Positions 5,555-30,176 of a stretch of 30,386 nt of DNA are shown here, piece by piece. The notes beneath the pieces were generated by a model, which worked only from the letters and a program-made list of their open reading frames with translations, had not been told where the DNA came from and made no database searches. This DNA is from a virus. Position 1 is the first letter of the stretch. Each line of letters opens with the position of its first letter. The position numbers and the translations under genes are program-made. The stretch spans positions 1 through 30,386 of IMG/VR virus record IMGVR_UViG_3300032156_000056. The stretch is one strand, 5' to 3'.

Positions 5555-6427
5555 TTACATCTCGTCATAAAATTCGTCAAGCGCTGTAAGTTGCGCGAAT
5601 TTTTCCAAAGCGATTTTGACATCCGGAGTCGGCGGGCCGTCCACGTCGGCGATGACGGTGTATATGGTCGCGTTGTCGGACGGATACCAGCCCTCTCCGA
5701 CGACGAACCGCCGCACCCGCACGAGCACCTTGAGCGTCGTCCCATCTCCGAACTCGCTCGATTCCCAATGTAATTTAGCCACGCCGTCCGCCTTGATTAT
5801 AGTTTCGTTGTAGGTCGGTGTTGCATTGCCATCTGGATTCACGCCGTTGGAGGTGAACCATACCGCCCAGTTGGTCGCCTGGTCGTCTCCGTCCTTCGGG
5901 TATGCGTAATAGGCGTCCACAACCATCTTCCCATTCGCGCCCGCGACGGCGAGAATGACATCCGGCGCCGAGGGCGAATTGGCGAACGCTCCCTCGTCAT
6001 GGGTAACTATCATCCATGACGAGATATTTTTACTAACAACGCCGAATTTATTTCTTTTCCGTAAAATGAAATAATAAAATTCCCACTCATCGAGCGCCGC
6101 CGTTTCGTGCGGCAGGGAGGCGAATGTTTCCCACGGGGCTTCCGTGTCCGGGTCCGGCTCCGCGCCGACTCCGCGGTAGAGTTCATATCGTTCGTCGGCG
6201 TCGTTTGCGACGCGGTGAATGCCCTTCATTTCGCCCGCGCGCGCGGCAAGAAATCCGAATCCGCCTTTCATTTCGGCGAGACGGCTTTCGAGAACCTCAA
6301 CGATTCCGAATCTTCCCTTCATTTCAGCGAGGACGGAATTGAGGACGTCGAACGTCCCCCAGAGCCGCGCCTTCTGGTAGGCGTAGAGCAGGAAATATCC
6401 TTTCATTTCGGCCGTGTGCGATGTCAT
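5555..6427 (-). CDS. Tail structural protein with N-terminal EMKG repeats (290 aa)
   Basis: The first 75 residues hold four copies of an EMKG motif (about residues 7, 35, 52 and 66), each in an A/G-EMKG-x-F-like context separated by helical segments. After that comes a domain beginning ERYELYRGVGAEPDP that resembles a fibronectin-like or tail beta-sandwich. The C-terminal third is also beta-rich. ATG 6427 overlaps the preceding stop (ATGA); the longer frame starts with GTG 6445 and is less likely. It lies between two paralogous tail proteins and the large hub-like protein, so a tail-tip role is likely. Confidence 0.6.
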   Translation of the reverse strand: MTSHTAEMKGYFLLYAYQKARLWGTFDVLNSVLAEMKGRFGIVEVLESRLAEMKGGFGFLAARAGEMKGIHRVANDADERYELYRGVGAEPDPDTEAPWETFASLPHETAALDEWEFYYFILRKRNKFGVVSKNISSWMIVTHDEGAFANSPSAPDVILAVAGANGKMVVDAYYAYPKDGDDQATNWAVWFTSNGVNPDGNATPTYNETIIKADGVAKLHWESSEFGDGTTLKVLVRVRRFVVGEGWYPSDNATIYTVIADVDGPPTPDVKIALEKFAQLTALDEFYDEM

Positions 6428-7473
6428 GCGGAATCGTATCCCCACTTGATGTAGTTGTAAACGCTCGGCTCGTTCTCCGCCGCCTCCGGAATTTCGCGTT
6501 CTATCCAGACGCCGTAAATATATCCGGCGACGAGGGTTCCGATATTCAGACCCTCGCTCGATGCGATGCCGTTTGACCAGGCGACGCCGCCCGGCGCCGA
6601 GCCCTCGCCTGCTCCGGTCTTGTCCGTGAAATATCCGGCCGGCTGCGCCGAGGGCGCTTCTTTCGCGATCCGGATTCCCGGCACCGCGTCTACTGTGTCG
6701 GTCGCCGCGCCGGCCGCCGCGGTTGTTCCGCCCATCTCCCTGCCGGTGGCGGGGACGGTGAGGACGGTCGAAGTCCTCGACGAATAATAGACCTTCTCGC
6801 GGATGGTTCCACCGCTCGTCTTGATGAGCGCGAATCCGCTGTCCGGCCAGTCGCTAAAATCACCGCTCGATATTTCGATTGTCCCCGCGCCGGAAGCGCC
6901 GAGTTGCGCCACGTCCGAAACGCGCTGCGTGCCGAGGGTGCCTATCCATGCCTTGAGCACGGTAACGGACCCGGCGGAATCGTTCTTCAAACAGAAACAG
7001 CGATGTTCCAAATCCCCGGCGGCGGCCTCCGCGGAATCCACGTTGTCGAATCCGGGGAGGTTGTTGAGCAAGAGGACGAGCGTCATTGTCTCAGTGCCGG
7101 AGAGGTCTGATGCGGAAACGCGCGAGACAATGACGAATTTGTTGGCGTCGTCCCCGTCCGGGAACATCTTGGTCTCGCCGTTTGCGATGTTAACCGCGGC
7201 GCCGTAGGAGGAAGAACCGGGCGCCTTGTATCTCAGAGAGCCGGTGGTCGGCGCGTCAATGTAGGCCGTGCCCGCGCCGTTGTTGCCGGAAAATAGAACC
7301 ACTACAGCGTAGCCGCTGAATATACTCGACGGCGAATATCCTATCATGTTGACGAGCGAGGCCGCGCGGTATTTTCCGAGGGAAAGATTCGGGTCGGCCT
7401 GAGCGCCGCCGTCCGAAGCCGCGCCGGTCAGATAAGGCCGTATGGAATCGGGGCCTGTTTTTTGTTCTGCCAT
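6424..7473 (-). CDS. Tail protein, paralogue of the upstream gene (349 aa)
   Basis: This is a beta-rich structural protein of unrecognised family. It is clearly paralogous to the gene just upstream (7483-8514): both begin with GPD then YLTGAASDGGAQ and NLSLGKYR. Both also carry SAEAAAGD followed by RCFC(L/M)KN in the middle, WPDSGFA, and a C-terminal YGxWI(E/K)R segment. ATG 7473 has GGAGG about 6 nt upstream. The pair probably arose by tandem duplication and may form a mixed ring or alternate subunits at the tail tip. Their first 65 coding nucleotides of the conserved block remain nearly identical although the rest has diverged. Confidence 0.7.
   Translation of the reverse strand: MAEQKTGPDSIRPYLTGAASDGGAQADPNLSLGKYRAASLVNMIGYSPSSIFSGYAVVVLFSGNNGAGTAYIDAPTTGSLRYKAPGSSSYGAAVNIANGETKMFPDGDDANKFVIVSRVSASDLSGTETMTLVLLLNNLPGFDNVDSAEAAAGDLEHRCFCLKNDSAGSVTVLKAWIGTLGTQRVSDVAQLGASGAGTIEISSGDFSDWPDSGFALIKTSGGTIREKVYYSSRTSTVLTVPATGREMGGTTAAAGAATDTVDAVPGIRIAKEAPSAQPAGYFTDKTGAGEGSAPGGVAWSNGIASSEGLNIGTLVAGYIYGVWIEREIPEAAENEPSVYNYIKWGYDSA
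7370..7434. repeat. 65-nt block shared by the paralogues (copy 2; copy 1 at 8411-8475)
   Basis: Positions 7370-7434 and 8411-8475 match at 63 of 65 bases by eye, whereas the rest of the two genes is far more diverged. The block encodes the YLTGAASDGGAQ-NLSLGKY segment. Confidence 0.8.
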
Positions 7474-7482
7474 AAATTCCTC

Positions 7483-8514
7483 CTATGCGGCTGAAAAGCC
7501 GCACTTAATAAAATTCCGAATTGTTTTTTGATTTTTCATCGTCGGCGGCGCGAGGCGCTTAATCCAAATGCCGTAAATACCCTCATCCGGAAGAGACGGG
7601 AGAGTCGCGATATAAAGGCCGCTCCGCGCGGTTATACTAGTCACCCAAGTGACGGCCGCCGGCTCCGAGCCCTCGCCGTCGCCCGTCTTGTCCTGAAAAA
7701 CTCCCGGCGGAGAAGGCGACTCCCCACCAATCGCTATCCCCGGAACCGGAATGATGGAGTCGTCGGGCCTGCCCATGCTCGCCGTGGTGTCGAGCAGTCC
7801 GCGGCCTCCGGAGGGGACGTAGAGAATTTTATTCGTGCGCTCCCTGAAATAAACGATTTCTCGCAGCGAACCATCTGCGCGAATGATTCGCGCGAATCCT
7901 GAATCAGGCCAGCTGGACAGGTCGAAGCGGTATATTTCTATTTCTCCGGCGCCATCATCCGGAAGTTGCCCCTCGCTTGGCACCCGCGCATATCCGAGCG
8001 GGCCGAGCCAAAGGCAAATGTTTGCAAGGGTGTTCGCGCCTTCGTTTTTCATGCAGAAACAACGATATTCGGCGTCGCCCGCGGCGGCCTCCGCCGAGGA
8101 TACCTCGTCGAGCGCTATAACATTATTCGCGTCTTCGGTCAGAGTAACAGTTACCACGGCGGAGGTGTCGCCGAGGCGCTGAATGCGGATGTATTTGTCG
8201 CGGCCGGATGCGGCATAGAGAACCTTCACCGCGCCGGAAACATAAACCCACGGCCCGTAATCGTCCTCGCCCGGGGCCTTCCAGCGGAAGTTGCGAAAAC
8301 TCTGTTGAACGTATCCCGTTCCCGTGCCATTTGCGCCGGCGGTAAATGAAATGAGAAAATTTTCAGTCGTATAATCGGCGTTGAGTTGGAGAACCTCAGT
8401 GCTCGAGCGATATTTTCCGAGGGAAAGATTCGGGTCGGTCTGCGCGCCGCCGTCCGAAGCCGCGCCGGTCAGATAGAATCGCAGGGCATCAGGTCCTTTT
8501 TGAATCTCGAACAT
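7483..8514 (-). CDS. Tail protein, paralogue of the downstream gene (343 aa)
   Basis: This is the first member of the tandem pair. It has the same architecture as 6424-7473: an N-terminal conserved block with YLTGAASDGGAQ, a central SAEAAAGDAEYRCFC segment, an EIEIYRFDLSSWPDSGFA stretch, and a C-terminal YGIWIKR. Two ATG codons stand in tandem. I use 8514, which has GGAGG 4 nt upstream; 8517 is the alternative. It shares bases with the stop of the FN3-like gene. Long beta-strand-rich segments and no membrane segment suit a virion component. The exact role is unknown. Confidence 0.7.
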   Translation of the reverse strand: MFEIQKGPDALRFYLTGAASDGGAQTDPNLSLGKYRSSTEVLQLNADYTTENFLISFTAGANGTGTGYVQQSFRNFRWKAPGEDDYGPWVYVSGAVKVLYAASGRDKYIRIQRLGDTSAVVTVTLTEDANNVIALDEVSSAEAAAGDAEYRCFCMKNEGANTLANICLWLGPLGYARVPSEGQLPDDGAGEIEIYRFDLSSWPDSGFARIIRADGSLREIVYFRERTNKILYVPSGGRGLLDTTASMGRPDDSIIPVPGIAIGGESPSPPGVFQDKTGDGEGSEPAAVTWVTSITARSGLYIATLPSLPDEGIYGIWIKRLAPPTMKNQKTIRNFIKCGFSAA

Positions 8515-9056
8515 CATGCCTCCGAGATTGTTATTTTATAGGTGTCCGCGTTGAATGAATACTTTACGTCGGGGATGTCAGGATGTCTGACCATGAGCGC
8601 CGAATATTCGTTGAGCGTCGAGGAATTCCCGTTTGTTCCGACGGCGGTAACGCGGAGTTTGTGGACGACGCAGTCGGCGAGTTTTTCCGTTTGATATTTG
8701 AAATTCGAACGGCCATCGTCATAGAAGCGCGCAATCTCGACCCAGGCGCTGTCCACGTATTGCTCGACCTTATAATAGTCCGTTCCCGTCGAGCAAGCCC
8801 ATTCGAGCGTGAAATATGGAGGGAAGACCTCGAACGTTTCGCCCATGTCCGCCGTGAATACGGAGACGACCGCCTGGCCGCCATATTCAAGGGGGAGAAC
8901 GTATTCGGTCGCCTGCGTGATTGCCGCGCGGTAACCATTGACATAGACGTAATAGATTGTGCCGGCGCCCTCGTCGTCCCAGGAAATGAGCCACGAGTTC
9001 TCATCCATCTGTTGCGGCTCGTTCATGGAGACGGGATATTCGTATTCAGTCGTCAT
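8514..9056 (-). CDS. FN3/Ig-like tail protein (180 aa)
   Basis: Two beta-sandwich units follow one another. The first (residues about 15-75) has TIYYVYVNGYRAAIT with alternating hydrophobics. The second (about 78-155) has FTLEWACSTGTDYYKVEQY, then WVEIARF and HKLRVTAVGTNGNSS, the classic strand pattern of a fibronectin type III domain. ATG 9056 shares bases with the preceding stop (TAATG). FN3-like proteins are common on phage tails and capsids, where they may bind host surface polymers weakly. A virion decoration or tip role is inferred. Confidence 0.65.
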   Translation of the reverse strand: MTTEYEYPVSMNEPQQMDENSWLISWDDEGAGTIYYVYVNGYRAAITQATEYVLPLEYGGQAVVSVFTADMGETFEVFPPYFTLEWACSTGTDYYKVEQYVDSAWVEIARFYDDGRSNFKYQTEKLADCVVHKLRVTAVGTNGNSSTLNEYSALMVRHPDIPDVKYSFNADTYKITISEA

Positions 9057-9475: not shown

Positions 9476-10840
9476 TCATTCTAATCCTGAGTTAATATCA
9501 ATGATATTTCGGGGTTTAAGTTCGTTGGATTTGTTTAACGTATCGGTCAATTCTTTTGTTGCTTTGGCATTTTCTTTCAAAATTTCTTTTAATTCGAAAA
9601 ATTCCAATTTTTTTTCAGCCATTTTTTCCGCTTCTTCCGGAGGATAGGATTCCATCCAATAAATATTTTTCAAGCCCTGTTTCGCTTTTTCTCTCGGAGA
9701 AATCGTTTCGCCTTTGCCCCAAAGATCGATGTCGCTAAGTTGTTCATGTATCATTGCGCCGAATTTTTCTGGCCCAGACAATCTAGATTCCGCCGCCAAC
9801 CATTCTTTTTCAACTAAATTTTTATATTTTTCTTTGGTCAATTCTTTTTGCCCAAAAACTTCCGCCATCCTTATATCTGATTGAACCTTGACCGCTTGAA
9901 TCCCGAGCATATCCCTATAAGGCGATTCTCCTATAACTCCGGAAACGCCCTCTTGAAAAATATTTTCGGCCCTCGCTCTCCGAAGTTCTTGCGCGATTTC
10001 CTTCGGTCTGCCGGTCAGCAACTTTTCGAATTTCGCGCGATTATTTATTTCGGACAATGAACTTACTTGCCCCCCCTCTTGAAGTTGCGAAAGCAAGAGT
10101 CCCATCGTTTCGTCAAATGTGCCTATTCCGGCGCCTGTTATTTCCCCTATTGCTTTCCAGCCGGATTTTTCCATTTTAGTTCCAAATTTTCCGGAACGGC
10201 TGATTATGACGCGAGCCGTGTCCATGACATCCCCAACCGACATCGTAGGATTCAATTTCCTTACCCAGCCGGCTGTTTCGGCGTATTGAGTCGTCACGTC
10301 AATGTCTTGAGAACCGATATCGAATACGCGCGCTTTCGCGGCTTCCCCTGTAAGTTCTTTTATTACCCCGGGCGCCGCTTCCGGCAAAACTCCGCGGATA
10401 GTTTGGCGAACCTGAGTCGCTTCGGTCGGAGAAATATATGGAATCTTTTTTGAAATGTCGAACATTTCTTTTTCTATTTTTTTAATATCCGCCAAATCGG
10501 CGGTTGTCGCCAAGCTTTTTAATATATAACCATGAAATTCCTCAAATACTTTCTTCCCATCCTCAACTTCTCCTTTCCATTTTCTATAGGCCTCGCGGAC
10601 AATTCCTATGCCCGCCGCTATGCTTCCCACGCCGGTTAACATCCCCGCTACCTTCATAAATCCCTGCGTCATCTTTTCGGCATCCATCACATTCTCGGAA
10701 GCCGTCTGTTTGCTTTCGCGGGCGGTTTTTTTCAGGCCGCCGATGACCTCTTCCTGCTTCGATATGACCTGCTCATATTTACGCAGGAGGTCGGCCGCAT
10801 CGCCGGACATAGTAATTTTTACCGCGTCCTGTTCCCCCAT
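9476..10840 (-). CDS. Tape measure protein (454 aa)
   Basis: This protein sets tail length and is ejected with the DNA. Residues 1-60 are helical and charged (AADLLRKYEQVISKQEEVIG), typical of the start of tape measure proteins. A hydrophobic Gly-rich segment follows (MKVAGMLTGVGSIAAGIGIV, about 62-81), a likely membrane-inserting part. The remainder is almost wholly helical with Lys/Glu-rich coiled-coil character. Using the general relation of about 0.15 nm per residue, the tail would be near 70 nm, short for a siphovirus. ATG 10840 follows the upstream stop directly. The gene is noticeably more AT-rich than its neighbours, especially at the 3' end. Confidence 0.8.
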   Translation of the reverse strand: MGEQDAVKITMSGDAADLLRKYEQVISKQEEVIGGLKKTARESKQTASENVMDAEKMTQGFMKVAGMLTGVGSIAAGIGIVREAYRKWKGEVEDGKKVFEEFHGYILKSLATTADLADIKKIEKEMFDISKKIPYISPTEATQVRQTIRGVLPEAAPGVIKELTGEAAKARVFDIGSQDIDVTTQYAETAGWVRKLNPTMSVGDVMDTARVIISRSGKFGTKMEKSGWKAIGEITGAGIGTFDETMGLLLSQLQEGGQVSSLSEINNRAKFEKLLTGRPKEIAQELRRARAENIFQEGVSGVIGESPYRDMLGIQAVKVQSDIRMAEVFGQKELTKEKYKNLVEKEWLAAESRLSGPEKFGAMIHEQLSDIDLWGKGETISPREKAKQGLKNIYWMESYPPEEAEKMAEKKLEFFELKEILKENAKATKELTDTLNKSNELKPRNIIDINSGLE

Positions 10841-13246: not shown

Positions 13247-14686
13247 TTATGGGCCCCATTCGACCGCCCATTTTTCCCGATAATAAAAGTCAACGGAATT
13301 TGTTCCGGTTTTGCGTTCGTTTTTGGCGTTTCGGGTTGGACCTTCGACTTGCGCCACATTGTGAATTGATAGATGCGTGCCCTTCCCGGCGAGCTCCCAC
13401 ATTTCGGTAATGATGGCGCCGAGAATATTGTCGAATTCAGTTCTCGCGTTGATATGGGAATCGCGATATGCCTCCGATATGTCCGCCTCGAAGGTGAGCT
13501 CGAGGGAGCCGCGCCCCATGCGGTAGTTGCGGGCGCCGCCGGCGATGATGGAATCCTCCCTACCCGTTCTCTCGATAAGCGCGAAAGGTCGATCAATCTC
13601 GTCGCCGTCGAGGGCGTATTCATGGATGAAGGCCTTGGCCGCCGCGGCGTTGTCCACGCCGCACCACGTCTGGAAAGTAGCGCAGTTCGACAGGAGGTCT
13701 TTTAGGAGATAAACCGACTTGTTCAGGTCGCCGGTGAATACAATGTTCCCGCTCGATGCGGCCGGGGTTACTCGCGCAATGATCCCCGGCGGCGATTCAT
13801 TTCCCGACGTGTCAACTGAGACGCAATGCAACTCGAATTCGGTGCCGTTGACAAGGCCGCTTTTCGTGTAAGCGCTTCCGACGATGGGGTTGGATATGTC
13901 AGTCCACTTCGTCCATTCGTCAACGTCCTGGGCCTTCCTAATGCGTCCGTATACGCGGATGACCAGGAGGTCTTCGTCGTCCGGGATGGCGATGAGTTCG
14001 ATGGAGATTGTTCCATCGGAGGCATCGGTTACCTCGAATTCGGCGAGGCCCGGGGCTTCGCTTTCCGTCGGGATATATGTTCCTTCGAATTCTGTCCCGT
14101 TCGAGCCATATCCTATCCCGAAAAGAACATTCGCTTCCGCCGGTGCTTCAAAATTCCCCTCGAATTCTTCCTCGGAGCCGAAAAGGACTCCATCTTCCAC
14201 GTCGTTCTGACTCGGCGCAACGAAAGTTCCGGGGACGCCATTGACAGTATCATCTTCGAGAACATTAGAGGGAAAGGGATAATCCGGGACCGATGGAACA
14301 TATTCGCCCTCGAACTCGGTCCCGTTTGACCCATAACCAACGGGAGCGAGGACATCGGACTCGGCGGGAGAAACAAGGTTGCCCTCTTCTAAACTATTCG
14401 CGCCGAAATCTATTCCATCTCGAACGTTATCTTCGATTACCGGAACATAAACGCCTGGAACGTTATCCACCGTATCAATCGTCAGGACGTTTTCCACTTC
14501 GGGGAAGTCGGGCACGTAAATCTGAAACGGCGAGTCCGGTTCGCTCGCCTCCGACATGTTCGGGCGGTAATCCGCGTCGCAAATAAAAGTTTTCACCTCG
14601 GATATTGCGCTTAACATGTTCGGGGGGTAATCCGCGTCGCAAATAAAAGTTTTCACCTCGGATATTGCGTTTAATTTGATAGCCAT
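13247..14686 (-). CDS. Tail terminator-like protein with N-terminal repeats and FN3-like domain (479 aa)
   Basis: Four parts can be seen. Residues about 5-44 are two near-identical 20-residue units containing AISEVKTFICDADY. Residues 58-206 are two repeats of about 75 residues with YGSNGTEFEG and VL-DTV-VPG motifs, a pattern shared with phage fibre and spike linkers. Residues 213-308 look like one FN3 domain (WTKWTDIS, NGTEFELHCVSVDTSGNESP). Residues 320-479 resemble a tail terminator (lambda U/minor tail family), with KDLLSNCATFQTWCGV at the start and a beta-rich end. The last part sits directly before the tube gene, as expected for a terminator. Such a large N-terminal extension is unusual. 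ATG 14686 shares bases with the spike stop (TAATG). Confidence 0.6.
   Translation of the reverse strand: MAIKLNAISEVKTFICDADYPPNMLSAISEVKTFICDADYRPNMSEASEPDSPFQIYVPDFPEVENVLTIDTVDNVPGVYVPVIEDNVRDGIDFGANSLEEGNLVSPAESDVLAPVGYGSNGTEFEGEYVPSVPDYPFPSNVLEDDTVNGVPGTFVAPSQNDVEDGVLFGSEEEFEGNFEAPAEANVLFGIGYGSNGTEFEGTYIPTESEAPGLAEFEVTDASDGTISIELIAIPDDEDLLVIRVYGRIRKAQDVDEWTKWTDISNPIVGSAYTKSGLVNGTEFELHCVSVDTSGNESPPGIIARVTPAASSGNIVFTGDLNKSVYLLKDLLSNCATFQTWCGVDNAAAAKAFIHEYALDGDEIDRPFALIERTGREDSIIAGGARNYRMGRGSLELTFEADISEAYRDSHINARTEFDNILGAIITEMWELAGKGTHLSIHNVAQVEGPTRNAKNERKTGTNSVDFYYREKWAVEWGP
14555..14674. repeat. Two tandem 60-bp repeats
   Basis: The 60-bp units 14555-14614 and 14615-14674 differ at only two positions. 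They encode 20 residues each in the N-terminus of the terminator-like protein. The near identity points to a very recent duplication. Confidence 0.95.
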
Positions 14687-16296
14687 TAGATTGTTGCTCC
14701 GTTGTAAGCGAACAGTCGCGCCACGTAATCCCGGCCTTCAACTATTCCTGCCAGTTGCATCTTGCAATATCTCGTTGCCGCAGGGTCAACACTCACGCCG
14801 TTTGTGCCTTCTACGCCCGAACTCGACGGGTTTGCTGTTCCCATTGCGCTCCAGTCGCCGGAAGATTCAGGGTCTTTGCCGGAGATGTAATTGCTGGAGT
14901 ATGTCCACGCAAGTCCAGCGTCATAATACGTTCCGGTTGCCCATGAATCCTTGCACTGTTCGAGCAAGTAGAAAATCTGATTATCTGAATGCGTAGCCGC
15001 AACCGTGCCATACGCACCTCGCGTGCAGCCTGTCAACTGGCCGCCTGCCTTACCCGTGTATGTAATCAGTTCGGAGTCCACGAGTATGGCTCCGCTGGCA
15101 GGGATTGTGCCAATCTCGCCATCGTAATCAATCGTGGTCTCGATTGTGTCAAGCGGTTCATTGAGTCGCCCGCCAATATCTCTGTTCATAAGAGCAAGGC
15201 GATATTGTGCCGTTCCGCTGTTCGCTCCATATCCGCCGGTGTCCCGCGTTCCAACCTTCCATGCGAAGGTCGGCGTTGCGTCTGCGCACTTGCCGAGCGG
15301 ATAGACATTGATTGCCTTTTCAGGAGTCAATACTGAAAGATTTTGGTATGCTCCGGCAGAAGGAGAAGCGTCGTCATAATCAGCGTTGTAAATATCTTTT
15401 TGTGCAAACAGAAGGTAATCCGGACTACCAAGATTCTTCGCGGGACTTACATCCTGCAGACGGAAATCGCCTGCCCCTGCATCAACGAAAAGCGGGTCTT
15501 GCTCGATGGAATCAATGTCCAGTCCTGTGGCTGCATCCCACGCTGCCAATGAATCATATGTAGTTGCACCCATCCGCCCTAAATGGCCACCACCTGAAAT
15601 ATAATAGTTATTGCGGTATGCAATACTTCCAGTTGCCGTGGCTCCAGGGCCATAAAATCCATATTGGCCATTACCTACATAAAAGACATTATTTTTCATG
15701 TCTGTGTGGTTATTAGAATACTGGGGAGCGGAAATGGCTTTATCATTCAGATAAAAAGTATTATTGACGATTGGACAAATATAAGAACCTGCCCCAAGAT
15801 GGTAAATACCCTCAACATTCTGGTTGAACTCACAAGCGGAAATTATGCCCCTTATTGTACTATAATCATTGTAACAATGGAGGTGTACTCCTATCATCAA
15901 TCCTTCAAATATACACCTTGTTATCCATATACTATTTGCTGTATAAATGACTGATACAAATCCATTACCACCTCCTTGAAATTTAATCCCTTCAATCCTT
16001 AAACATCTTGCTCCGGCGGTGAGGGTGCCGGTTATTCTATTACCGCTTGCTCCGGTCATAATCGGAAAATCAGCCATGTCTTCTTTATTGCTTCTTAAAG
16101 TAAGCGGGAATATTGTTGTAGGAGCCAAGCCATCATTGAAAGTCACATTCTCAGTATAAGTCGCGCTATTCTGTATCTCGCCAATAACCGGCTCCGTGAA
16201 CGCTGCTGAACCGTAAGTTGACCACACCCACGCAGCAAAGGCAGCGATTGTAGTGAAATCCCCACCGCCGGCGGCTATGATTGTCTTTATAGGCAT
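14686..16296 (-). CDS. Beta-helix spike-like protein (536 aa)
   Basis: This is a probable right-handed parallel beta-helix, the fold of many tail spikes and depolymerases. It opens with TIIAAGGGDFTTIAAFAAWV, the usual capping start of these proteins. Short rungs such as ITRCIFEGLMIGVHLHCYND and IVNNTFYLNDKAISAPQYSN follow. It then has DPLFVDAGAGDFRLQ with SPAKNLG near residues 267-290, a signature found at the end of many pectate-lyase-like helices. The C-terminal 240 residues are beta-rich and Gly/Ser-rich. No catalytic residues can be assigned. ATG 16296 has GGAG about 8 nt upstream. The 5' half (15.6-16.3 kb) is much more AT-rich than the 3' half, suggesting exchange. Confidence 0.7.
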   Translation of the reverse strand: MPIKTIIAAGGGDFTTIAAFAAWVWSTYGSAAFTEPVIGEIQNSATYTENVTFNDGLAPTTIFPLTLRSNKEDMADFPIMTGASGNRITGTLTAGARCLRIEGIKFQGGGNGFVSVIYTANSIWITRCIFEGLMIGVHLHCYNDYSTIRGIISACEFNQNVEGIYHLGAGSYICPIVNNTFYLNDKAISAPQYSNNHTDMKNNVFYVGNGQYGFYGPGATATGSIAYRNNYYISGGGHLGRMGATTYDSLAAWDAATGLDIDSIEQDPLFVDAGAGDFRLQDVSPAKNLGSPDYLLFAQKDIYNADYDDASPSAGAYQNLSVLTPEKAINVYPLGKCADATPTFAWKVGTRDTGGYGANSGTAQYRLALMNRDIGGRLNEPLDTIETTIDYDGEIGTIPASGAILVDSELITYTGKAGGQLTGCTRGAYGTVAATHSDNQIFYLLEQCKDSWATGTYYDAGLAWTYSSNYISGKDPESSGDWSAMGTANPSSSGVEGTNGVSVDPAATRYCKMQLAGIVEGRDYVARLFAYNGATI

Positions 16297-16298
16297 AG

Positions 16299-16715
16299 TT
16301 ATTTCTCCACTGCAACGGCGGTCAAATTCTTGACTTCCGCCAGTTTGATTTTCAAATCTGAAATAAGTTTCACAATTGTCGGGTCAACAGATTTCTCGCT
16401 CGCAAGAAACTGCTCACCCATTTCCGCAAGTTTCGCCATGCGTGTTTTTATCGTTGTCTGTTCATGAATTGCCTTTTCTTCTGCCGTCAATTCCCCTGCA
16501 TTCCAATGTTCTGCGGAGAGTGGAGCAAGGGCTTTCCCGTCCCAACGATATTTGTTCTTGGGAATATCTGCCATAACATCCAACTCAAGGTCAAGGTCAA
16601 TAAAATCAAATATCGTTTTCTCAAACTCCGAAGGCGGAACTGGCTGTATCCCGCTGATATGCCCATCGTATCCGTAACTCCCGACGCCACCTTTTTTCAT
16701 TATGCGAAGTTTCAT
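16299..16715 (-). CDS. Hypothetical protein next to the spike (138 aa)
   Basis: The first 26 residues (MKLRIMKKGGVGSYGYDGHI then SGIQPV) are almost identical to the start of the 193-residue frame at 17074-17655. The middle has FDLELDVMADIPKNKYRWDG-like text, rich in acidic and aromatic residues. The C-terminus is a coiled-coil-like helix (MAKLAEMGEQFLASEKSVDP). ATG 16715 overlaps the upstream stop (ATGA). A small protein just before a spike could be a spike chaperone or adaptor, but no family is recognised. Confidence 0.65.
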   Translation of the reverse strand: MKLRIMKKGGVGSYGYDGHISGIQPVPPSEFEKTIFDFIDLDLELDVMADIPKNKYRWDGKALAPLSAEHWNAGELTAEEKAIHEQTTIKTRMAKLAEMGEQFLASEKSVDPTIVKLISDLKIKLAEVKNLTAVAVEK

Positions 16716-16891
16716 TTTATCTCCCTCGTTTCGTCATCCTGCGCAAACATGATGCACTCTTCTTGACTCTCCCAGCACCGCGTCTCCATGTCATAAATCA
16801 ACTTCTTGCCGAGATTGCATTTCCCCCTTGCAATGTCGAAATTCGGACATGATGCTATCAACTTTCCGTCATTGTCATACTTCGCGCAATA
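16638..16891. repeat. Duplicated gene-junction block, copy 1 (copy 2 at 17578-17831)
   Basis: The two blocks lie 940-943 bp apart. Each holds the end of a Cys-rich reading frame, an ATGA stop/start overlap and the first 26 codons of the next frame. The stretch 16690-16717 is an exact match to 17630-17657, and the rest is clearly related at DNA and protein level. Confidence 0.85.
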
Positions 16892-16897
16892 CTTCAT
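16712..16897 (-). CDS. Cys-rich small protein, paralogue of the C-terminal domain of the 269-aa protein (61 aa)
   Basis: Cys residues lie at 4, 17, 27, 41 and 48. The whole chain aligns with residues about 211-269 of the protein at 17652-18461, sharing C-A-x6-DG, CPxFD, the following Cys, I(V)YD, ECIM/KCIM and DD(E/K)TRE. It is therefore a stand-alone copy of that domain, probably metal-binding or disulphide-bonded. ATG 16897 overlaps the preceding small gene (ATGA), and its stop overlaps the next start likewise. Function is unknown; two Cys of the longer copy are missing (Phe replaces one in CIMF). Confidence 0.7.
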   Translation of the reverse strand: MKYCAKYDNDGKLIASCPNFDIARGKCNLGKKLIYDMETRCWESQEECIMFAQDDETREIK

Positions 16898-17073
16898 AAC
16901 TCTTTACCTTTCAACACCTCGTCTATTGCCTCGCCGAGTTCTGCCTGCACGTTTATTGATTCTACTATCGCCTGCGCCGCTACCTTCGAAGCCACGTATT
17001 GCGCCCATAGATAGAGAAACTCCTTTTCGTCTTCAGGGAGAACCCAAACCTGCATTAGAACTACTTTGTGCAT
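16894..17073 (-). CDS. Small protein in the membrane/lysis-like cassette (59 aa)
   Basis: ATG 17073 directly follows a TAA and has AAGGAG about 8 nt upstream. The frame ends with a TGA that overlaps the next start by ATGA. The sequence opens MHKVVLMQVWVLPEDEKEFL and continues as one helix with Ala, Val, Glu and Gln. Tight packing at both ends, a good ribosome site and a clean composition make it a real gene. I recognise no family. Confidence 0.65.
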   Translation of the reverse strand: MHKVVLMQVWVLPEDEKEFLYLWAQYVASKVAAQAIVESINVQAELGEAIDEVLKGKEL

Positions 17074-17655
17074 TTATACTCCTTTATGCACGGGAAATTT
17101 CTTCGCAACTGCTTCGTTCAGCCAGCCAACATTCAAATTCGAAATTTCCTTTTTCGCGGGCGATTTACTGCCCGTCAATTCTACCGCGTTTATCAATTCA
17201 AATATTTTCTTGCCCCACGAATACTTTGTAATAAACCCAACGCCCGTGCCTGATACAATTATCCCAATACCAAGAGTAAGCATCTGTTCCCAAATAGATT
17301 TTCCGGCCATTTTTATCTCTTGCCTCAAACCTCCGATAACCTGCTGTATGTTCGCATACGCAGCAAGCCCTTGCTCAATGGTCATTTCGCCGGACGCAAT
17401 TTTGCCCTGTATCGCCGCCGCCTCCGCGTTCAACTCGTCTATCTGCGCCGCGATTATTCGCACATGTTCCCGCCCCTCGGGGTCAAGAAGAGACGCAAGG
17501 AAAGCACAAGACGCGAACGATAGAATAAGAACCATCAGAACCGTAAGAATGCCATATCTCATTTCATCTATCTCCCAAACCGGTTGCATTCCTGATATAT
17601 GCCCATCGTATCCAAAATTACCTACTGTGCCTTTTTTCATTATGCGAAGTTTCAT
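17074..17655 (-). CDS. Two-TM membrane protein with duplicated N-terminal leader (193 aa)
   Basis: Residues 1-26 copy the start of the 138-aa protein (MKLRIMKKGTVGNFGYDGHI then SGMQPV). A hydrophobic segment follows at about 33-56 (ILTVLMVLILSFASC, possibly a lipoprotein signal with Cys at about 50), then a helical region (60-120), a second hydrophobic segment (126-144) and a basic tail. ATG 17562 (residue 32) has GGGAG about 9 nt upstream and may be the genuine start; the leader would then be a relic of the duplication. Two membrane segments and the context of small membrane genes suggest a holin-like or other lysis role, but no family is matched. Confidence 0.6.
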   Translation of the reverse strand: MKLRIMKKGTVGNFGYDGHISGMQPVWEIDEMRYGILTVLMVLILSFASCAFLASLLDPEGREHVRIIAAQIDELNAEAAAIQGKIASGEMTIEQGLAAYANIQQVIGGLRQEIKMAGKSIWEQMLTLGIGIIVSGTGVGFITKYSWGKKIFELINAVELTGSKSPAKKEISNLNVGWLNEAVAKKFPVHKGV

Positions 17656-18461
17656 TTCATCTCCCTCGTTTTATCATCACGCGCACACATGATGCACTTC
17701 TCCCGGCATTCCCAACGGTTGAGAGAAATGTCATAAACGATTGGTTTGATTGACTGGCAGATTTCTTTTTCCCTGTCAAAACATGGGCAAACATTTACAA
17801 TCCTTCCGTCCATCGTCCTCTCGGCGCAGACGATGTTATTTTTCTCCGCAGTAAAATCCGCCAAATTTATAAACGGAAAATCTCTCACCGAACTCCCGCG
17901 CGTGGCATTGAGTATGGAGATATTGTTCCGCGCCGCGAATTCCGCCAGCAGAGCGAAATGCCGCAGTATCTCCGGCTTCGAGGGATATTCGCGCGTGTCC
18001 TGCGCCGGTTTGTAGAAATGGCCGCAGTCGTTGAGCTCCACGCCGGCCATGATGATGGGATTCGCGCCCATGAGATAGGCGAGATTGAGAGCCGCCATCG
18101 CAACGGTATGCGAATGAAAGAGCCCGCCTTTCCAATTCGGGGAAATGATGCAGTCCCCGGGCCCGGGGATATACCGCGGGAAAATATTCACGGGCAAATC
18201 ATCGGCGACCCTGCCCTCCGCGGGCGCGAACTTTTCGGCGACACTCTTATGTATCAAGTCCTTGAATCTGTCATATGCGGGCGGGTCAACCCAAAGATAA
18301 TAATCGGGGTCGAAGGCGCGCAATATTCCATTAACGCCGATGGTGATGAATTCGTGCGCGCGACCGAAGTCGAATTCCGCCATGCCCGGCCCGCATCCGA
18401 GCACGAGAATCGGCTGCCCCCTGTGTCGCCCCTCGATGGGTAGGAAATTCAACTTCTTCAT
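17652..18461 (-). CDS. Probable DUF115/sugar-transferase-like Rossmann protein with Cys-rich tail (269 aa)
   Basis: Residues about 1-200 form an alpha/beta domain: PILVLGCGPGM (18-27, nucleotide-binding Gly loop), FITIGVNGI, DYYLWVDPP, then GGLFHSHTVAMAALNLAYLM and PIIMAGVELND. This set recalls DUF115/MptE-like and GT42 sialyltransferase-like proteins, which bind CMP- or similar nucleotide sugars. Residues 211-269 are a Cys-rich domain (Cys at 212, 225, 227, 235, 252, 256, 259) duplicated as a free gene at 16712-16897. The start overlaps the upstream stop by ATGA. It could modify a host surface sugar or a virion protein. The family call is moderate; the donor and acceptor are unknown. Confidence 0.6.
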   Translation of the reverse strand: MKKLNFLPIEGRHRGQPILVLGCGPGMAEFDFGRAHEFITIGVNGILRAFDPDYYLWVDPPAYDRFKDLIHKSVAEKFAPAEGRVADDLPVNIFPRYIPGPGDCIISPNWKGGLFHSHTVAMAALNLAYLMGANPIIMAGVELNDCGHFYKPAQDTREYPSKPEILRHFALLAEFAARNNISILNATRGSSVRDFPFINLADFTAEKNNIVCAERTMDGRIVNVCPCFDREKEICQSIKPIVYDISLNRWECREKCIMCARDDKTREMK

Positions 18462-19165
18462 TTCTTGTTGACCGCCTCGTGTATGTCTCGAATAGTGCCG
18501 GAGACGCTTGATTTGGCCACGCCTTCCGTGATTATGCTTTTTATTTTTTCGCGACTTTCCGGAAACGCTCCCTGAATATTTTCAAGAATTTTTGACATGG
18601 TCGCGCCGGCTTCGGCGTTCTCATCGGCCGCCGCCAGATTGTCCTCCGCCTCATTTGTTTTCTGCTTCGCCTGCTTCGTTTTTCGCCAAAGTTGTATCGC
18701 GCCGCCGACCGCTATGATTATCCCAGTCAGCGCCTCCCAGGGAACGCGGGCCTTTTCCGCTATGGATTCGGGTATTATTTTCTTTGCCGCGGCCGCCATA
18801 CTATTTTTCAAAAGGGCGATTTCGCGCGTGAGGTCCGAGTAATACTTGACGTTCTCGCTCGAATACTCGACGGGGGAGTCGGGCGCGCCGATAAATTCGG
18901 CGGCCGCAGAAAAACAATTCTTGGCGTCATCGAGCGCGACCAGCGCCACGGTATTGTTCTCATTGACCGCCAATATCCCCACATCGAGCGCCTTCAATCC
19001 CAGCGCCTGCGTCTGTTGCACCTGAGCCGGTATGCAGCCGGCAAAAAGAAAAAGAACCAACGCCGCGAAAAAAACAGAACAAGGCGCGAAGCAACTCCTA
19101 TTGGTTGACGGCTCGTAGGCGGGCACGACGTCCTGGGGAATGCCTGCAAAGAAAACTTTTTTCAT
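18458..19165 (-). CDS. Putative lipoprotein with a second membrane segment (235 aa)
   Basis: After a 30-residue polar start comes a hydrophobic run VFFAALVLFLFAGC with a lipobox-like LFAGC (Cys about 44), followed by helical polar sequence. A second hydrophobic stretch sits at about residues 146-161 (TGIIIAVGGAIQLW), then a Lys/Glu/Ala coiled coil. A lipoprotein with an inner membrane part and coiled coil could span the envelope, as spanins do, although no spanin family is matched. The polar start before the signal is longer than usual, so the start may be wrong. The stop overlaps the next start. Confidence 0.55.
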   Translation of the reverse strand: MKKVFFAGIPQDVVPAYEPSTNRSCFAPCSVFFAALVLFLFAGCIPAQVQQTQALGLKALDVGILAVNENNTVALVALDDAKNCFSAAAEFIGAPDSPVEYSSENVKYYSDLTREIALLKNSMAAAAKKIIPESIAEKARVPWEALTGIIIAVGGAIQLWRKTKQAKQKTNEAEDNLAAADENAEAGATMSKILENIQGAFPESREKIKSIITEGVAKSSVSGTIRDIHEAVNKK

Positions 19166-29078: not shown

Positions 29079-29549
29079 TTATTTTTTCCTTGTCGAGATT
29101 TTCTTATTGTAATTTTTTACCATCAATTTAATTATTTTTCGTCTGCCAATAAGAATATTCGAAGTCGGCATGTATCCACATTGTTCATAAAATGACGAGG
29201 GGTCTCCCGTGGATTGGTCAGTCTTGCTTCTTATGACATCTGGATTTAATAATTTCAACATTTTCTTTCCTATACCCATACCTCTGCAATTACCATCTAT
29301 TAAAAGATGATACAAAACATTATTGGGACGCTTGACGCCCCATGCAATTATTCTTTTATTTTTTATAGCAATCCAAGTGCTTCCATGTCGTAAATAATAA
29401 TGGTGTTGTTGTTTGGTTACAAAATAATCATCGCTCGCGTTCTCTTCGTTTTTCATTCCTCGCCCGGAGAGCCAGTAATCTACGAATGATTTTATTTTAT
29501 CAAAATCTTTCAAATTGGCGCGGCGGAAAATTATTTTCTTATCAGGCAT
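29079..29549 (-). CDS. GNAT-family acetyltransferase-like protein (156 aa)
   Basis: This is a GNAT fold protein that would transfer an acyl group from an acyl-CoA. It starts MPDKKIIFRRANLKDFDKIK. Motif A, CRGMGIGKKM, lies at about residues 88-97 (Q/RxxGxG/A pyrophosphate loop) and SSFYEQCGYM (about 118-127) is the usual end of the domain. ATG 29549 has GGAGAG about 6 nt upstream. In the sequence as given the ParB reading frame runs into this gene without a stop, but the proper ParB frame ends at 29531, overlapping this start by 19 nt. The gene is strikingly AT-rich, unlike the ParB part, so it was probably acquired separately. Mom-like DNA modification is a possibility, not shown. Confidence 0.75.
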   Translation of the reverse strand: MPDKKIIFRRANLKDFDKIKSFVDYWLSGRGMKNEENASDDYFVTKQQHHYYLRHGSTWIAIKNKRIIAWGVKRPNNVLYHLLIDGNCRGMGIGKKMLKLLNPDVIRSKTDQSTGDPSSFYEQCGYMPTSNILIGRRKIIKLMVKNYNKKISTRKK

Positions 29550-30176
29550 AATAATCTCTCCGTTGGCGTGTCGCCCTTTTGTTTTTGCAGGGCTTTTTCT
29601 ATTTCCTTTTTTTTGTTTATCCGTAACGACGAAAGTCATGTATAGCAATGGTTTTTGTATGCTATTTAAATTTTTCTCCGTGAATTTTTTAATCCACAAT
29701 TTATCAAATCTTAAAGATTTTTGTTCTTCGGGGAAATTCTTTTGAATATCATCGAGCATTCCATCGAGGTCCGGCGTAAATTCCCCTTGCAATTCCGGAT
29801 TGTTCGCCGCCACATTCGCCGCCTTCTCGAATGCCTCTGGCCAATCAACCTCGCGGACGTGGAAACGAACGCCGGTCGGCAGGACCATTGAGCCATAACG
29901 TTCGCGCGAAACGAATTCAGCGCCCGCAGTGCCGAGCTCGACCTTATAATAGTCGCTCCAGTCAATACTCGTCATTGCCTTCGGGCCAAGCGCCTCGCGC
30001 CGCTGGTTCGCGCAGATGACGTTCTTCGTCCGCCGATTGACCACGAAGCCGGAGAGGTCGCCGAAGACGCGCACTGAACGCTTCAGCGCGTTCAGCGCGT
30101 CCGCCGAAATGCGGCGAGGGTTGTATTTTGGAGTTTGGTATTCGGAAATCGAATTTTGCTTTTTCTTTTTGGACAT
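29531..30176 (-). CDS. ParB/sulfiredoxin-domain protein, frame disrupted at an A8 run
   Basis: Residues about 15-66 have the ParB-like pattern: NPRRI, spaced Leu/Ile helix positions, FVVNRRTKNVICANQRREAL (usually GHQR in relatives). A helical segment and NVAANNPELQGEF follow. Proteins of this kind lie beside terminases in many phages and are linked to nucleic-acid binding or modification. ATG 30176 has AAGGAGG about 5 nt upstream. At an A8 run (29607-29614) the given frame continues into GNAT. If the run were A7, it would instead read TDKQKKEIEKALQKQKGDTP and stop at 29531, which looks like the normal ParB C-terminus. The extra A may be a mutation, a slippage site or a sequencing error. Confidence 0.7.
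29607..29614 (-). promoter_or_regulatory. A8 run, frame-change point between ParB and GNAT
   Basis: Eight As on the minus strand. Reading straight through fuses ParB to GNAT; with one A fewer the ParB gene ends normally and overlaps GNAT by 19 nt. Compare the A10 run at 11597-11606, where one A fewer also gives a more protein-like tail. Confidence 0.6.

Follow-up and report, generated by a model that had tools for sequence, protein, structure and literature searches.

The locus lies within a window formed by one whole IMG/VR record, IMGVR_UViG_3300032156_000056, of 30,386 bases, and all genes studied around it are on the minus strand. Its central feature is a gene junction present in two places. 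The outer copy, copy A (17578..17837), comprises the Cys-rich tail of a 269-aa protein, a stop/start overlap and the first 26 codons of a 193-aa frame; the inner copy, copy B (16638..16897), comprises a free 61-codon Cys-rich gene, the stop/start overlap and the first 26 codons of a 138-aa frame. Read along the minus strand, the genes run from the chimeric 269-aa ORF (17652-18461) through the 193-aa frame (17074..17655), a 59-aa ORF between the copies (16894..17073) for which family searches gave no match of note, and the free 61-aa gene (16712..16897), which is the Cys part of copy B, to the 138-aa frame with its leader (16299..16715), which had no family match above noise. The latter precedes a 536-aa DUF5123/beta-helix-like frame (14686..16296), by its sequence a probable tail fibre protein, situated inside a stretch of low third-position GC content (GC3).

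The two copies align codon by codon over 260 nt with zero gaps and 97 mismatches, giving 63% nucleotide identity over their full length, and a direct-repeat search paired 16638-16774 with 17578-17714 at 78% over 137 nt. Their local alignment scores 78; the best of 200 shuffles reached 20. The sequence-only reading, that a gene junction is present twice, is thereby borne out, along with its description of the contents: the last 58 codons of the Cys-rich frame match residue for residue at 43% amino acid identity (E 2.7e-15 within the window), the first 26 codons of the next frame give a 26-residue leader match at 85%, and the ATGA overlap is seen at both junctions, with one Cys-rich part being indeed the free 61-residue gene. 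Of the proposed spacing of 940–943 bp, a constant offset of 940 holds throughout the alignment and an offset of 943 was not found. In each copy the end of the upstream frame reads TRE(I/M)K, followed by ATGA and then MKLRIMKKG; the codons of the frame end contain GAGGGAG, a Shine-Dalgarno-like sequence at good spacing in both, so that the block carries not only the stop, the start and both gene ends, as had been claimed, but also a likely ribosome site. Residues C4, C17, C27 and C48 of the 61-aa protein are common to both copies. The flanks are wholly different at the two places, and in five additional nucleotide comparisons the flanking bodies showed no homology above shuffles. With 97 mismatches in 260 nt the copies are old, and if they have recombined, this was not recent for most of their length.

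At the outer place, the Cys part forms the C-terminal tail of the chimeric ORF, whose codons 1-208 (17838..18461) encode a domain resembling MptE and sialyltransferases. The description of its host as sugar-transferase-like holds weakly, as the 269-aa ORF matches PF01973 (MptE-like) at E 7.5e-6 and 26.3 bits, below the curated cut-off of 34.6, phrog_4603 (alpha-2,3-sialyltransferase) at E 3e-7 and TIGR04437 WaaZ at E 2.3e-5, far under the model cut-off; the first 200 residues are thus only weakly assignable as sugar-transferase-like. A tblastn search of 50,697 phage records returned a sole homologue of the transferase, from a 462-kb uncultured phage, at 24% identity. This protein of 264 residues aligns to residues 14-202 and has 4 residues left thereafter, whereas the 269-aa ORF has 67 more. 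Because the homologue ends where the tail begins, the Cys part seems to have been added to the transferase, one remote homologue being thin evidence for this. Structure models of the transferase ORF (mean pLDDT 34) and of the 61-aa protein (mean pLDDT 58) were unusable.

The 193-aa frame downstream of copy A consists of the leader, a short link and then MRYGILTVLMVLILSFASC, a possible lipoprotein signal. The leader is in frame with this hydrophobic stretch, which ends FASC, the lipobox being judged by eye, and the product is possibly membrane-lipoprotein-like. An ATG at 17562, with GGGAG upstream, is a possible start of its own for this gene. On the other side of the chimeric ORF, a 235-aa frame (18458-19165) has about 30 residues followed by a hydrophobic stretch ending FAGC, an arrangement like that of the 193-aa frame with its fused leader, the two sharing no sequence similarity.

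The wider genome appears to be that of a divergent tailed phage with low similarity to known phages. Its large terminase subunit has a profile match to PF20454/PF05876, its portal to PF05136, and its head protease matches phage families; a 519-aa frame after the protease is, by its position only, the probable capsid protein. Against the 50,697 phage records the terminase reached 26.5% identity, the best among the matches listed, and the probable capsid protein had no tblastn match. Scans of the window for tRNAs and Rfam families found none, and a sequence search against solved structures gave no meaningful match. Among other features, a GC-rich 78-bp tandem repeat (864-1068) encodes a Gly/Cys-rich N-terminal extension of a helix-turn-helix regulator frame (488-1066), an extension that may be untranslated, and a 296-aa frame (5555-6445) carries AEMKG/GEMKG four times in its N-terminal part at roughly regular spacing.

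Relatives that carry the junction, or that have or lack the outer insertion, were found neither in scans of viral contigs and genome contigs nor among phage and plasmid records. These searches depend on exact-word seeds or on moderate similarity, and near records may be left out of them; the portal and terminase alignments proved too divergent for scan seeding. Leader DNA patterns together with protein and alignment scans of viral contigs yielded only four distant terminase relatives (L013-L016, 32-39%). When 34 window proteins were compared with these four loci by tblastn, the Cys and transferase parts were unmatched and the 138-aa protein reached a best E of 0.34; the transferase was absent from the whole records of L013, L015 and L016, the L014 record being left out. 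Neither the transferase nor the terminase had a relative in the genome contigs. In the phage records, tblastn gave zero matches for the 138-aa, 61-aa, 193-aa and 235-aa proteins and two for the fibre protein, covering a small part of it only, and the 61-aa protein had no match in plasmid records.

Third-position composition places a border close to the outer copy. A two-change-point model delimits a low-GC3 stretch on the minus strand at 14074..17885 (left support 17930-17786, right 14107-13993), with GC3 of 0.67, 0.48 and 0.70 before, within and after it, running from codon 193 of the 269-aa ORF to codon 205 of a 479-aa ORF, and both best borders fall within ORFs. A model with a single change point puts the break at codon 219 of the 269-aa ORF (support codons 179-226), GC3 being about 0.67 ahead of it and 0.47 beyond; the gain is 34.8, and the highest among 300 permutations was 8.9. 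The Cys tail itself (35/61) does not differ significantly in GC3 from the transferase part (145/208; p 0.089). The left border, placed within about 48 codons, could reflect gene class rather than origin. A 454-aa gene (9476-10840), by position probably the tape measure, and a 365-aa frame (29079-30176) are likewise low in GC3, and therefore low GC3 alone is no proof of foreign origin. The N-terminal part of the 365-aa frame is ParB-like (phrog_620) and is joined to a GNAT acetyltransferase domain (PF13508). The 479-aa gene carries, close to its 5' end, a 60-bp tandem repeat (14554-14673, approximately codons 5-44) whose two copies are 97% alike, a young in-frame duplication.

The conservation between the copies is concentrated around the start codon, which raises the question of selection on the RNA. 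The core extends from 50 nt before the start codon to 26 nt from it (17630..17705 in copy A, with GAGGGAG at 17661-17667; 16690..16765 in copy B, with GAGGGAG at 16721-16727) and is identical at 66 of 76 positions (87%). In 21-nt windows, most of the Cys part has an identity of about 0.4-0.6; the value peaks at 1.0 at the start codon, falls to 0.57 some 22 nt into the leader and is then higher again at GYDGH. A conserved translation-initiation element, its core kept by RNA-level selection, would fit this peak, the well-spaced GAGGGAG in both copies and the scarcity of silent changes: of the 43 codons at which both copies encode one and the same degenerate amino acid, 16 differ silently, with 1/15 in a core chosen by eye and 15/28 outside it (Fisher p 0.003, the window having been picked after the data were seen). 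A permutation scan, whose best block (Cys codon 57 through leader codon 8) shows 0/10 silent differences, brings the corrected p to 0.10, making conservation of the core at the DNA level suggestive only. The folds of the two cores are not clearly unusual either (z -0.92 and -1.80) and match no Rfam family, although the same 5-bp stem covering the ribosome site and start codon is predicted in both. The nearest known counterparts are the start-associated sequences of Cluster K phages, which are 13 bp in length with 11-19 copies per genome, recur where different genes have their ribosome site and start codon, as here, and sometimes include the upstream stop (PMC3203893). The present junction differs in having two copies and coding homology reaching far beyond the start, and the 30 other starts in the window do not repeat the core (mean 25.5/76 identical, maximum 33/76). 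On the whole such an element is an improbable explanation.

A simple, old tandem duplication of some 940 bp, in which all but the two gene ends have since decayed and which played no part in gene exchange, is unlikely on the whole while deserving serious weight. The copies are in direct orientation at a short distance, and the phage has other local duplications, namely the neighbouring 344-aa and 349-aa proteins with 44% amino acid identity and the 60-bp repeat at 14554-14673. Against it, homology leaves no trace outside the junction: the lipoprotein body scores 11 against the 138-aa body (shuffle mean 10.6), as does the 59-aa ORF against the transferase part adjoining the Cys tail (shuffle maximum 14); it also leaves the composition border inside the chimeric ORF unexplained. 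A template/variable pair of the diversity-generating retroelement type, suggested by two direct copies that differ by point changes close to a fibre module, can be virtually discounted: adenine is involved in 30/97 mismatches of one copy and 30/97 of the other, so the differences are not adenine-directed, they are spread through two frames, and none of the window proteins scanned was recognised as a reverse transcriptase.

The balance of these observations tips slightly towards the duplicated gene boundary marking the left edge of a tail-fibre module of low GC3 that the phage gained through ordinary mosaicism, and the junction resembles a trace of the well-known exchange of genes among phages more than it does a new system. 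The inner place would be an ordinary pair of genes ahead of the probable fibre gene, and at the outer place the junction would have been pasted between two complete genes, one sugar-transferase-like and the other membrane-lipoprotein-like, producing two in-frame fusions, a Cys tail on the transferase and a leader on the lipoprotein. The most likely route would be recombination at or near the boundary as the low-GC3 module entered or was rearranged, with the boundary either providing the homology used for the exchange or being copied along with the module. Transfer of the module, recombination as the cause, the lipoprotein nature of the 193-aa product and continuing use of the boundary as a joint are what we infer, and the boundary perhaps served as a short homologous joint. 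Since the block keeps frames, ribosome site and overlap as one unit, both genes stay translatable after any exchange inside it; a simulated crossover between the copies gave an intact gene pair of 269 aa and 138 aa at 260 of 261 points, a result nearly implied by the gap-free register.

The proposal that the block could act as a homologous joint for gene shuffling is plausible and partly supported. A stronger form, in which the junction is a reusable splice cassette that allows genes to be swapped on either side with translational coupling kept, is decidedly improbable, and if true its cost would be the Cys tail and leader left on the joined genes. Tandem paralogues of 349 aa and 344 aa elsewhere in the window (6424-8517), 44% identical, have a 98-nt 5' stretch that is 86% identical, with silent differences at 68/150 codons of shared degenerate amino acids overall but at 1/20 in codons 15-35 (permutation p 0.008). 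Their conserved block starts after the first codons, so an explanation by the ribosome site does not fit that pair, and local exchange between neighbours, or selection on 5' coding sequence, may act in this phage.

Conserved boundary sequences have been described in lambdoid phages. Short sequences of this kind in phage mosaicism are also named by Pope et al. in their work on Cluster I mycobacteriophages, and resemble the junction in placing homology at module borders as a proposed guide for exchange, the comparison there being between phages and here between two places in one genome (PMC3029335). The closest parallel in that account is Island3, in which genes 67 and 68 have about 60 bp in common at their 3' ends and for which Brujita, a close relative, shows the single recombinant copy, a case tied by the authors to conserved boundary sequences (Pope et al., 2011; PMC3029335). 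As here, neighbouring and otherwise unrelated genes have a short homology at a gene end, and an exchange there can insert or delete the intervening gene with frames kept, the logic proposed for the present junction as well. Unlike the Island3/Brujita case, the junction spans 260 bp across both stop and start, is old, and had no relative found in the searches.

Without relatives that vary at the seam, the junction opens no new mechanism. Phage genomes are mosaics, and their seams usually lack homology. Given this, examples in which a gene boundary is a possible joint are informative, and the junction described here shows a seam that leaves protein fusions behind, a tail on one gene and a leader on the next.
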